Below are positions 11,022 through 14,434 of a stretch of 56,333 nucleotides of DNA, piece after piece. The notes under the pieces were generated by a model. That model worked only from the letters and a program-made list of their open reading frames with translations, had not been told where the DNA came from and ran no database searches. The DNA is from Rhodothermia bacterium. Its GTDB lineage: Bacteria > Bacteroidota > Rhodothermia > Rhodothermales > UBA2364. Each line of letters starts with the position of its first letter. Position 1 is the stretch's first letter. The translations under genes were made by a program, and so were the position numbers. The stretch spans positions 1 through 56,333 of the forward strand of contig JAFLBZ010000030.1 of the NCBI GenBank assembly GCA_017303715.1, given 5' to 3'.

Positions 11022-11525
11022 ATGATACAAAAAAAGGTTTGCATGCTCGGCTCATTTGCCGTCGGTAAAACCAGTCTGGTTAAGCGATTTGTGAGCAGCA
11101 TCTTCTCCGAAGAGTACCTCACGACGGTGGGTGTAAAAGTGGATAAGCGATTGGTAAAAGTTAATGAAACTGAAGTTAATTTGATGCTTTGGGACTTGCA
11201 CGGCGAAGATGAGTTCCAAAAACTACGCCTTTCCTATCTCCGAGGTATGTCTGGCTATATTTTGGTGGTGGATGGAACCCGAAAAACGACTTTAGACAGG
11301 GCTTTTGCTTTACAACGCAATACGGAAGCTACTTTTGGACCAATGCCTTTTATTTTGGTACTAAACAAGGCCGACCTGAAGCAAGAGTGGCAAATTCCCG
11401 ATGATGTTCTGGAGGGCTTGCGTGCAAAAGGTTGGCTGATTAAGAAGACGAGCGCACTTACGGGAGAAGGCGTCCCCGAAATCTTTGAATCCTTAACCGA
11501 GCGAATCTTGATTGAGGCGACATGA
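11022..11525 (+). CDS. Ras/Rab-like small GTPase of prokaryotic type
   Basis: A 167-residue stand-alone Ras-superfamily GTPase. Its nucleotide-binding motifs are clear: G1 GSFAVGKTS (10-18), switch I YLTTVGVKV with the conserved threonine, G3 WDLHGED (57-63), G4 NKAD (115-118) and G5 TSAL (143-146). In G3 the residue that corresponds to the catalytic glutamine of Ras is glutamate (E62), which suggests slow intrinsic GTP hydrolysis or a different activator mechanism. No lipidation motif or membrane segment is seen. A GGA-rich stretch lies just before the ATG. The stop overlaps the start of the next gene by four bases (ATGA), so the two are almost certainly cotranslated. The GTPase is probably a switch controlling the following cyclase-fold protein and kinase. 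No roadblock-type activator (MglB-like) is adjacent. Confidence 0.9.
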   Translation: MIQKKVCMLGSFAVGKTSLVKRFVSSIFSEEYLTTVGVKVDKRLVKVNETEVNLMLWDLHGEDEFQKLRLSYLRGMSGYILVVDGTRKTTLDRAFALQRNTEATFGPMPFILVLNKADLKQEWQIPDDVLEGLRAKGWLIKKTSALTGEGVPEIFESLTERILIEAT

Positions 11526-12445
11526 ACTTGATGCCCTCTTCCGTCAAAACGTATTTGGAGTCCATTTCCATAGAACGCTTCAAGCCTGCTTTCGTACAGG
11601 CCGATCCTGCGGGTCATATTGTTTTGGTGGGAGGTGATTGGTTTAACCTTGGCGTTCCGGATCCATTACCCGAAACCATTTTAGAGCGGGTTCCCCTTTT
11701 GGTCGGCTTATTGCCACTACAAGGTGCTTCTTTTTTGATACCGGACGTCCAAATGAAAAACGGGCGCATAGCCGATGCCCATTTTTTTCATGAACCAGCG
11801 GGGGATTGGGTCGTCTTTGTGGATGTAACACCACATCATGTGGAAAAACAGCAGTTGTTCCAGCAAGCCAATGAGCTACAACTCATTAAACAAAATTTAG
11901 GCAACCTCAAGATCAATGCACACGGCCGCATTGGGAAAGCCTTACAACAGGAACTTCAACGCCGCTATCAAGACGGACGAGCGGCCTATATCGCCGCTTT
12001 AGAAGTTACTTTTGAGATTGACACTACTGTAAAAGATGCCGAAACCATCCGAATGGCGATTGTGAGTATCGAACAAATATCACAGAAGATCGAGCTTCTC
12101 TTGGGCGAGGCATTGGCTTGGCCTATTTATCCTTGCCCATCTGGTTTTCAAGCAATTATTGGGCTAATTCCTACCGAAAAAAAACTTGAAAACGTGGTAC
12201 AAACTTTATTGGAGCAAATACTTGCACTTATGAATGATGTTGCAACGTACTTTGACCCAAAAGAAGGGCTACGCCCTATGGTACATCTACGGGGAGGTGT
12301 CTCTTGCGGCGATGCGGTTGTGGCAAACATCACCGCTCAAGCACAAAATCGTGTCACGGTTCTCAGCAAAGCGATGAATCGCGCACATGAATTAACATCA
12401 AAAGCCCACCCTGGTCAAATTTTAAGCAAATTCTTAGTACATTAG
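11522..12445 (+). CDS. PAS-like plus class III cyclase-fold signalling protein, probably without cyclase activity
   Basis: A 307-residue soluble protein. The N-terminal 115 residues look like a PAS sensor (FKPAFVQADPAGHIVLVGG ... DWVVFVDVTPHHVEKQ). A helical linker (about 118-150) follows, then a divergent adenylate/guanylate cyclase homology domain (about 155-305), best recognised by RGGVSCGDAVVANITAQ and VTVLSKAMNRAHELTSKAHP near the C-terminus. The two metal-binding aspartates and the purine-binding lysine of active class III cyclases are not evident, although the asparagine of the VNxAxR-like motif is kept. I infer a pseudo-cyclase acting as an interaction or ligand-binding module. It overlaps the upstream GTPase gene by four bases and precedes a histidine kinase by 82 bases. 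An active but very divergent cyclase remains possible. Confidence 0.75.
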   Translation: MNLMPSSVKTYLESISIERFKPAFVQADPAGHIVLVGGDWFNLGVPDPLPETILERVPLLVGLLPLQGASFLIPDVQMKNGRIADAHFFHEPAGDWVVFVDVTPHHVEKQQLFQQANELQLIKQNLGNLKINAHGRIGKALQQELQRRYQDGRAAYIAALEVTFEIDTTVKDAETIRMAIVSIEQISQKIELLLGEALAWPIYPCPSGFQAIIGLIPTEKKLENVVQTLLEQILALMNDVATYFDPKEGLRPMVHLRGGVSCGDAVVANITAQAQNRVTVLSKAMNRAHELTSKAHPGQILSKFLVH

Positions 12446-12452
12446 TCCTTTC

Positions 12453-12462
12453 TTGTATCTTA
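12453..12462 (+). promoter_or_regulatory. Candidate -10-like element TTGTATCTTA
   Basis: This 10-base element lies 65 bases before the histidine kinase start. Nearly identical copies precede other genes in the window (25858 and 40822), so it may be a core promoter giving the kinase its own transcript. Pattern evidence only. Confidence 0.35.
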
Positions 12463-12527
12463 TTTTCCGGTGCTACTAATCGCTTGGTGAGCCTTCACGT
12501 ACCAAGCCTCAAATCCTAAATTCCGCC

Positions 12528-13679
12528 ATGAAACAAGAAGTAACTGCAAATAAACAGCCTTTGATAGACCAATCCTTGCTTCCAGCCCTGCTCAAAGCAA
12601 TGGATACCGCTGTTTTTGAACGTCGCAAATTAGGTAATTTTGTCCTCGTAAGCGAAATTCCGGAATGGTTTACACGTTTATTTCCCAATTTTGAACAGTA
12701 TTTACAGAACCATCAATTAGGCCAGCTCTCTCCAGTCTTAGAAAACTTCCTGATTGATGCAGAACGGCTTTGGCAAACCCATACCCACCAACAATTACAC
12801 TCTGGGGTATGGGAAGAAGCAGATGAGCAAGAGGATGATTATTTTTTAGAAGCAACGGCTTTGTTTGTCCAAAACCGAAGGGTACTTATGATTCGCTCAA
12901 TGGGGAGCAGTTATGCAGAAAGACACAATTTACTTCAGAAAGCACGGGAACACACCCTCGAATACCGCCGCGTGCGTGACGAGATGGAGCAAAAAGACGT
13001 ATTATTACATACGATTGTTCATGATATGTCTGGCCCATTAGCGGGATTAAAAGGGTATTTGGATTTATTAGGCAAAGAGAACCTAAGCCCCAATGGCCGT
13101 GAATTTATCGAAATCTGCCAGCGACAAGCCGCCCGTCTTGATAAATTGGTGTTAGAGATTTTAGATTCATTTGCTGCAGAGCTTGATTCGGGCGCTTTTG
13201 CCGCACCCACTACTGCCGAAGCACCCGACATGTTGGCAACCACATTAGACGTCATCAAGTCTGTACTTTCTACGGCACTACTCAACAAGGTCAATCTGTT
13301 GTTAGATCCCAAAACGGATCATAGCGCCAACTGGAAGGTGGCTGCGGACAAACTGCGCTTAGAACGTGTTCTGTTCAACCTGATAGGAAATGCCCTCTGG
13401 CACAGCAGTGAAGCCGGAACGGTACTCGTTCGTTTAGCGGATTTGGGCAAGTCCATTCGGGTTGAGGTTTTGGATGAAGGCCCCGGCATCCGACCAGACT
13501 TGATAGATGTGGTCTTCCAGAAGTTTCAACAAGGCAAAGAGCGCCGTGGGAAACTAGGACTGGGCCTCTATTTCTGTAAAATCACCATAGAGCATTGGGG
13601 CGGAAAAATTGGCTATCAGCCACGAGAAGGTGGTGGTTCCATTTTCTGGTTCGAGCTTCCACGTCCCATGCTCGCCTGA
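12528..13679 (+). CDS. Soluble sensor histidine kinase
   Basis: A 383-residue histidine kinase without signal peptide or membrane segment, so it is cytoplasmic. Residues 15-135 form a PAS-like input domain (LPALLKAMDTAVFERRKLGN onwards), followed by a short coiled region. The dimerisation domain has the phospho-accepting H165 in HTIVHDMSGPLAGLKGYL. The ATPase domain has an N box (FNLIGNALWHSS), a G1 box (DEGPGIRPD), an F-like box (VFQKFQQG) and a G2 box (GKLGLGLYFCKI). There is no receiver domain and no adjacent response regulator; the nearest are at 21301 and 23560. With the GTPase and pseudo-cyclase upstream it forms a likely signalling cassette. The methyltransferase begins 14 bases after its stop. 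Confidence 0.9.
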   Translation: MKQEVTANKQPLIDQSLLPALLKAMDTAVFERRKLGNFVLVSEIPEWFTRLFPNFEQYLQNHQLGQLSPVLENFLIDAERLWQTHTHQQLHSGVWEEADEQEDDYFLEATALFVQNRRVLMIRSMGSSYAERHNLLQKAREHTLEYRRVRDEMEQKDVLLHTIVHDMSGPLAGLKGYLDLLGKENLSPNGREFIEICQRQAARLDKLVLEILDSFAAELDSGAFAAPTTAEAPDMLATTLDVIKSVLSTALLNKVNLLLDPKTDHSANWKVAADKLRLERVLFNLIGNALWHSSEAGTVLVRLADLGKSIRVEVLDEGPGIRPDLIDVVFQKFQQGKERRGKLGLGLYFCKITIEHWGGKIGYQPREGGGSIFWFELPRPMLA

Positions 13680-13693
13680 TCTCCTTGGATATT

Positions 13694-14434
13694 ATGGCCG
13701 TTGATCACTCGCTCACGTACAAAAATCGCAGTTTTCGCAATATCGGCCATAGGAGCCGTTTAAAGGCTTTAGAGATGGAGGTGCGGTACCTGCGTGCGCA
13801 ATATGTTTTTACCTCGCTTGCAGATTTTGGTTGTTCAAACGGCTACTTAACAGCACATTTAGCCAACTGGAGTGGCGTTAACGAGGTCTATGGATATGAT
13901 GTAGAGGTGCAACACCTGCGGGATGCACAATCTCGGTTGCCACATGCTCAAATTGCTTTCTTCGACCTTAACCGTGCGCCCACACCTTTAGCGGTTCAAG
14001 CATCGCTAGTATGTTGCTTGGAAACGTTAGAGCACACAGGAGACTTGAGCAATGCGCTCCGCAATGTTTTGAACAGCATTTCATCTACAGGTGTAGCGCT
14101 TATCTCCGTTCCCATCGAAATCGGACTGATTGGACTGGGCAAGTTCATCCTCAAAACCTTAGTCTATCGCGACTCGCTTGCGGAATTACCCAATGTAACA
14201 TGGCATCGTTACTTCATGAAACTCCTAACCGGACAATCCATCTCGGTCTTTCGCGACCAAAGAACCGCTTGGAGTACCCATTTGGGATTTGATTGGCGCG
14301 ATGTTGACGATTTACTCCAGCAGTGGGGCGTCCCATATCAGGCAAAAAATCAGGGAACGGCGCGGATCTACACCATTCCCTGGAACCCTTATCTCTCAAA
14401 GATTGGCCTATCGAATGACGGTCATAAAGGATGA
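13694..14434 (+). CDS. Class I SAM-dependent methyltransferase
   Basis: A 246-residue soluble methyltransferase. Motif I is SLADFGCSNGYLTAHLA near residue 40, the acidic strand end is YGYDVEVQHLRDA, and the region LVCCLETLEHTGDLSNALRNV matches the later motifs of Methyltransf_11/23-like enzymes. The acceptor substrate is not predictable. The start at 13694 is 14 bases after the histidine kinase stop and gives a normal N-terminus; a longer frame reaching into the kinase gene would add non-conserved residues. The close spacing suggests cotranscription with the kinase. Its last 27 bases overlap the end of the convergent lipoprotein gene. Confidence 0.85.
   Translation: MAVDHSLTYKNRSFRNIGHRSRLKALEMEVRYLRAQYVFTSLADFGCSNGYLTAHLANWSGVNEVYGYDVEVQHLRDAQSRLPHAQIAFFDLNRAPTPLAVQASLVCCLETLEHTGDLSNALRNVLNSISSTGVALISVPIEIGLIGLGKFILKTLVYRDSLAELPNVTWHRYFMKLLTGQSISVFRDQRTAWSTHLGFDWRDVDDLLQQWGVPYQAKNQGTARIYTIPWNPYLSKIGLSNDGHKG

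Follow-up and report, generated by a model that had tools for sequence, protein, structure and literature searches.

The Group 1 Rup GTPases, defined by Wuichet and Sogaard-Andersen in 2014, are bacterial proteins of the Ras superfamily without the glutamine of the G3 motif, and the eukaryotic Rab, Ras and Rho GTPases were placed nearest to them (PMC4316618). In the systems described in that work, a single-domain Ras-like GTPase without MglB is accompanied by a coiled-coil gene, by a gene for a membrane protein that has a cytoplasmic domain labelled "unknown", a transmembrane segment and an OmpA domain at its end, and by an output protein, which is a kinase or a cyclic di-GMP (c-di-GMP) enzyme. 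The N-terminal domain of the output carries an invariant Gln, which was noted at that time and proposed as a catalytic residue supplied in trans (PMC4316618). MglB, the Roadblock protein not coupled to these systems, works as both GTPase-activating protein (GAP) and guanine nucleotide exchange factor (GEF) (PMC11016934).

Here, we analysed a stretch of DNA of 56,333 nt from a Rhodothermia bacterium (assembly GCA_017303715.1, contig JAFLBZ010000030.1), hereafter the window, which corresponds to all of the contig (C30). It carries a cassette of three genes, coding for a Rup-type GTPase, a protein with a PAS-like domain and a probably dead class III cyclase domain (P2), and a soluble histidine kinase. 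In our model, the cassette would make up the cytoplasmic side of an ancient, widespread Group 1 Rup system, and the membrane half, formed by a coiled-coil protein and an OmpA-ending protein with a predicted longin fold (longin/OmpA), would be encoded on another contig (C8) of the same genome. We give the full model a slightly better than even chance of being right, and it rests mainly on the links between the longin protein and Rup and between Rup and the output. The system shares with the published ones the components listed above; unlike them, it occupies two loci, its "unknown" domain is predicted to be of the longin/Roadblock type, and P2, whose cyclase is decaying, joins as an extra, fifth component. 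The comparison also brings in an invariant Arg and output types beyond those described. All these differences, including the split arrangement in this genus, appear to be new. An earlier note on this DNA had called the system little described, and we agree: the 2014 paper already covers the GTPase family and some of the genes around it (PMC4316618), and no experiment on a Rup protein turned up in the literature searched, most subscription journals being outside its coverage.

The Rup GTPase and its cassette

All the features reported for the window lie on the forward (+) strand. The GTPase gene (11022..11525, 167 aa) is followed by P2 (11522..12445, 307 aa) and by the kinase gene (12528..13679, 383 aa), which codes for the output protein of the system. 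The reading frames confirmed the three genes and the order proposed in the earlier note, including the 4-bp overlap between the stop of the GTPase and the start of P2 (ATGA, 11522-11525).

The GTPase matches Pfam Ras over residues 5-162 (6e-29), its best solved match by sequence is Rab23, and it carries the motifs of the 89 Rup copies that we compared. No other Ras-type protein that stands alone was found in the genome, where the remaining matches to the Ras profile are inside much longer open frames. Read from the sequence, the G1 motif, or P-loop, is GSFAVGKT (11049..11072), with Phe12 at the position of Ras Gly12, a residue shared by 66/89 family members and passed over in the earlier note. 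The G3 motif is WDLHGEDEF, in which Asp58 is kept and the position of Ras Gln61 is taken by Glu62 (codon 11205..11207). Among the 89 copies this position is Glu in 78, Asp in five, Arg in four and Gln in none. Thus, the replacement of the Ras catalytic Gln by Glu pointed out in the earlier note is real, but it is a hallmark of the whole family and not a special loss at this locus. Furthermore, according to passages in PMC10515638 and PMC2987813, the intrinsic GTPase activity of Ras Q61E is raised; therefore, Glu62 does not have to imply a switch that is inactive or locked on, and reading it as a loss of activity would be unsafe.

By its features, the cassette fits a member of the known Group 1 Rup kind, the tree computed here covering only the relatives gathered here. 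Indeed, the GTPase is a stand-alone Ras-superfamily G domain whose length falls within the 150-240 aa of the group, and it has Ras-like G1-G5 motifs with the G3 Asp and without the G3 Gln. No MglB gene is coupled to it, with zero matches to Pfam Roadblock (PF03259) in the genome, and the output has an N-terminal domain with the invariant Gln (Gln137 of P0003). The remaining feature of the group, the neighbouring coiled-coil and transmembrane/OmpA genes, is found once for each gene, the two being paired on contig C8 and not beside the GTPase. Membership in the MglA family was rejected on the basis of the retained G3 Asp58, where MglA has Thr, and of the absence of Roadblock genes. We also considered whether the genus had acquired the cassette horizontally: Rup falls outside the clade of its order in the free tree, yet the approximately unbiased (AU) test does not reject a single clade for the order (p 0.59 for Rup and 0.35 for the longin protein), and we make no such claim.

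Conservation of the neighbourhood

Profiles of four partner families (coiled coil, longin/OmpA, the N-domain of P2 or P2N, and the N-domain of the outputs or HKN) were run over the 89 Rup copies. A longin/OmpA gene was found near 80 of them, an HKN output near 73, a coiled-coil gene near 70 and P2N near 56. Taxa are named here as in the records, a large share of which are metagenome bins; on this basis, the neighbourhood occurs in about ten phyla, including Cyanobacteriota, Acidobacteriota, Nitrospirota, Myxococcota, Bacteroidota, Rhodothermota, Planctomycetota, Verrucomicrobiota, Gemmatimonadota and Pseudomonadota, among others. Most often, the genes run from the coiled coil through the OmpA protein, Rup and P2 to the output.

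The same three genes as in the window, in the form of Rup, a P2 with the cyclase fold and a kinase, are also present in loci L039, L041, L043, L044, L049, L050, L052 and L055, which belong to Cyanobacteriota, with one Acidobacteriota and one Myxococcota record. Within the order of the window, P2 is limited to this genus, and the other members have Rup and the kinase alone, with the coiled-coil and OmpA protein genes nearby. The earlier note had proposed looking for the same gene order in relatives and had suggested that the genes form one signalling complex. A conserved functional unit is supported: the order of GTPase, partner and output is kept across the phyla, and P2N and the HKN of a kinase-type output are joined in a single protein in 11 open reading frames (ORFs). 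These fusions suggest that P2N and HKN work together.

Three minor observations concern individual copies. A Rup operon of cyanobacterial type appears under the name Tatlockia (Legionellaceae) in one record (L057, 6278-7788); it nests among cyanobacteria in the tree, and the record is probably a mis-binned contig rather than a relative of Legionella with a Rup system. In two Acidobacteriota loci (L058, 8001-9133, and L100, 5417-6604), two Rup genes adjoin each other, as if coding for a heterodimer or a duplicated switch. Lastly, the coiled-coil partner in L043 (2884-3525) has a weak similarity to part of the anti-phage motor protein ZorA (NCBIfam E 9e-5, far below the cut-off), a likeness that is probably that of a generic coiled coil.

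The predicted membrane partners on a second contig

No coiled-coil or OmpA partner is present inside the window. On contig C8 of the same genome, one coiled-coil gene (E 3e-24) adjoins one longin/OmpA gene (E 8e-135), both in single copy. Since the window fills C30 and both loci are interior to their own contigs, the coordinates place the two loci at least ~60 kb apart. In the two other genomes of the genus, the Rup trio and the coiled-coil/longin pair likewise lie on different contigs.

The link between Rup and the longin/OmpA protein is also evident from their distribution. Among 60 related genomes, 17 have both, none has Rup only, one has longin/OmpA only and 42 have neither; moreover, the three genomes with two Rups carry two longin/OmpA proteins. 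As for the longin-only case (L134, G017:C75:75-971), the gene lies at a contig end in a genome of 85% completeness, and the Rup may have been lost from the assembly alone.

In the AlphaFold2 model of the longin/OmpA protein of the window genome, residues 148-273 of the cytoplasmic part follow a beta-beta-alpha-beta-beta-beta-alpha-alpha order, which is the order of longin domains. The top Foldseek matches of the model were longin-type adaptor and coat subunits, the Rab GEF Mon1-Ccz1 and MglB, and VIA-align gave Z values of 13.8 with the longin domain of Vamp7, 13.7 with Fuzzy of the Rab23 complex and 11.1 with MglB. The domain is followed by a membrane helix at ~314-333, placed by hydropathy, and by a periplasmic part ending in a Pfam OmpA domain. 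Thus, the cytoplasmic domain of this protein is predicted to adopt the longin/Roadblock fold. Sequence methods detected no longin/Roadblock signal in it, which would explain why it has long gone unnamed. The earlier note had stated that no MglB-type activator is nearby: this holds for the window, but a protein with the predicted longin/Roadblock fold is encoded on C8. For the same reason, reading the trio as a complete system devoid of an MglB-like partner finds no support, and two further members are to be counted on C8.

The kinase and the N-terminal domain of the outputs

The kinase has a HisKA dimerisation/phospho-acceptor domain (PF00512; aa 156-213, 12993..13166; 1.6e-9) and a HATPase_c catalytic domain (PF02518; aa 274-380, 13347..13667; 1.2e-23), both above the Pfam cut-off, with readable VHD and GLGLYF motifs. 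No transmembrane segment was found in it by hydropathy, in agreement with its first description as a soluble histidine kinase.

Upstream of these domains lies HKN (aa 18-150, 12579..12977), the N-terminal domain common to the outputs of Rup systems. The proteins that carry it downstream of Rup include kinases, hybrid kinases, GGDEF-EAL proteins, sigma-54 activators and one HD-GYP protein. Irrespective of the output domain, a Gln137-x-x-Arg140 motif (12936..12947) is invariant in all the 69 HKN sequences with letters at these positions; its Gln is the residue noted in 2014, and the Arg is the addition made here. In TBC-type RabGAPs, Arg and Gln are supplied in trans. By this analogy, the Gln/Arg pair of HKN could reasonably be proposed for that role, and its action as a trans catalytic finger toward Rup is a hypothesis for which we see nearly equal chances of being right or wrong.

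P2 and its degenerate cyclase domain

The part of P2 that is conserved among relatives is P2N (aa 1-128, 11522..11905), identified by family comparison and predicted topology. Indeed, in Nostocales and in some Nitrospirota the gene at the position of P2 codes for this domain alone (120-134 aa). In the predicted model its strands follow a PAS-like order, and neither PAS nor any other Pfam family matched it, in the window or in relatives.

The C-terminal half of P2 contains a degenerate class III cyclase domain (aa 150-302, 11969..12427). Although the Pfam Guanylate_cyc match of the single sequence is below the threshold (17.5 bits vs a cut-off of 21.9), the profile of the family finds class III cyclases of known structure (2w01, E 2e-28) and the predicted model has their fold (Z ~15). 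Five of the six catalytic positions are lost: the two metal-binding Asp are replaced by Thr and Ser, the Lys by Tyr, the base-selecting Asp by Lys and the transition-state Arg by Glu, leaving Asn as the single one retained. Of the description of P2 as a PAS plus class III cyclase-fold protein without evident metal aspartates, given in the earlier note, the cyclase fold and the missing aspartates are well grounded, with no sign of intact activity, whereas the PAS part comes from predicted topology.

None of 26 relatives has all the six positions intact, and the losses occurred by different routes; in L054 and L099 both metal Asp, the Asn and the Arg are retained and the base-selecting residue alone is changed. 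Furthermore, the cyclase part is absent from many lineages. Its decay or absence across relatives indicates that the N-domain is the conserved element, the cyclase part being a scaffold at most. Judging from its residues, P2 is a pseudo-cyclase that cannot work as a normal cyclase, and it likely has a scaffold or partner role.

Proposed mechanism and alternative explanations

The linkage of the genes, the split locus, the lost catalytic residues, the predicted folds and the invariant residues are results of the computation; from them we infer all the contacts and regulatory steps that follow. The longin/OmpA protein, anchored to peptidoglycan and probably with its coiled-coil partner, would monitor the cell envelope. 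Its longin domain would serve as a platform and exchange factor, perhaps also as an activator, for Rup, as happens for Rab GTPases and MglA. Rup-GTP would then bind the N-domains of P2 and of the kinase, with the dead cyclase acting as a dimerising scaffold and producing no cyclic nucleotide, and the binding would alter the output of the kinase to a response regulator encoded elsewhere. Finally, the Gln-x-x-Arg motif of HKN would act back on the GTPase, probably giving the catalytic residues that Rup lacks and helping to reset it. In its fullest version, the mechanism would be a complete Rab-longin-GAP cycle in bacteria of many phyla, in which a Rab-like GTPase has a peptidoglycan-anchored longin exchange factor and outputs that return Gln and Arg in trans like TBC RabGAPs; we regard this version as rather unlikely.

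Several points weigh against the two-locus model. The two halves of the system are not co-transcribed in this genus, and the Fisher test for the co-occurrence of Rup and longin/OmpA (p = 5e-14) ignores the relatedness of the genomes. The longin model has a mean predicted local distance difference test (pLDDT) of 76.6 and a predicted template modelling score (pTM) of 0.51, with pLDDT of at least 90 in most core strands. The longin fold is shared by SNARE longins, which are not known to act as GEFs, so that the fold alone is no proof of GTPase binding; the binding of Rup to its partners is deduced from gene linkage and fold class. As regards P2N, its PAS nature derives from the topology of the model, with no support from sequence families. 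The alignment of the P2N and HKN profiles places their C-terminal helices in the same register, but its score is not distinctive, being equalled by 2/100 shuffled profiles and by an unrelated profile, and for this reason the two were not taken as one domain family.

A different explanation is that the trio is a self-contained switch, in which the pseudo-cyclase protein itself activates the GTPase or serves as its effector, and that the distant pair is otherwise employed. The tight packing of the three genes, with their overlap, and the separation of the two halves in three genomes of the genus would agree with it; however, elsewhere the pair adjoins Rup in most copies, and no genome with Rup among the 60 relatives is without the longin gene, which makes this explanation improbable to us. 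Far less probable is that the cyclase domain remains catalytic, with another substrate or with metal ligands that have moved, as its intact fold and the residues retained in L054 and L099 might suggest: in the genus of the window neither metal Asp survives, nor does the Lys or the Arg, many lineages lack the domain and its decay took different routes, and the Pfam search of the genome found no second class III cyclase match. The main rival concerns the role of the output domains. HKN and P2N could be plain effectors reading Rup-GTP, the invariant Gln and Arg of HKN being binding contacts or signalling-helix residues and not catalytic fingers, and we give this a little less than an even chance. 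The two residues lie in the helix that leads to the output domain, where signal transfer would also demand conservation, and Glu62 may support hydrolysis alone, as Ras Q61E would suggest; nevertheless, the conservation of the pair in 69/69 sequences across kinase, GGDEF-EAL, sigma-54 and HD-GYP outputs and the absence of the Gln from the GTPase fit a role of the pair toward it.

Comparison with related systems

In the MglA-MglB systems of Myxococcus and Thermus, as in the two-locus Rup system, a small GTPase is found with a partner of the Roadblock/longin superfamily and with two-component signalling; unlike MglA, Rup has Ras/Rab-like G1-G3 motifs, and its partner, a transmembrane longin/OmpA protein, has no relation to MglB that could be detected by sequence. 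The actinobacterial conservons (CvnA-D) similarly gather a small GTPase, a Roadblock-superfamily protein and a histidine kinase in one conserved set, but their GTPase is of the MglA family, their Roadblock protein is soluble, their kinase is membrane-bound and they have no pseudo-cyclase. With the eukaryotic Rabs regulated by longin-type GEFs (Rab23/Fuzzy-Inturned, Ypt7/Mon1-Ccz1 and TRAPP), the system shares a GTPase nearest in sequence to Rab23 among solved proteins and a partner predicted to fold like the longin subunits of GEFs, and with the Rabs regulated by TBC-type GAPs it shares the possible supply of Gln and Arg in trans. The differences are as follows: Rup is bacterial, has no lipidation tail and no vesicle traffic, its partner is anchored to the cell wall, and its outputs are kinases and c-di-GMP enzymes. 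Lastly, the C-terminal half of P2 has the fold and belongs to the sequence family of the class III cyclases Cya2, CyaB and CyaC, from which it differs in its lost catalytic residues and in the absence of the whole domain from many relatives.

A membrane protein of longin fold, linked across about ten phyla to a bacterial Rab-like GTPase, would supply the missing regulator and make a stalled system directly testable. According to a view cited in PMC10933270, longin/Roadblock proteins arose in archaea, and the Rup-longin link would add a bacterial example to the debate over the rise of GTPase-longin regulation. If true, a bacterial counterpart of the Rab-longin-GAP arrangement would bear on the origin of the eukaryotic Rab/longin pairing. 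The pseudo-cyclase, in turn, would be a clear case of a signalling enzyme retained, if at all, for its shape.

The gene downstream of the cassette

A gene for an S-adenosylmethionine (SAM)-dependent methyltransferase (window 13694-14434, + strand) begins ~15 bp past the stop of the kinase and may be co-transcribed with the cassette. The methyltransferase is no part of the Rup set in other phyla; at a locus of the same genus (L038), an ORF of similar size follows the kinase.

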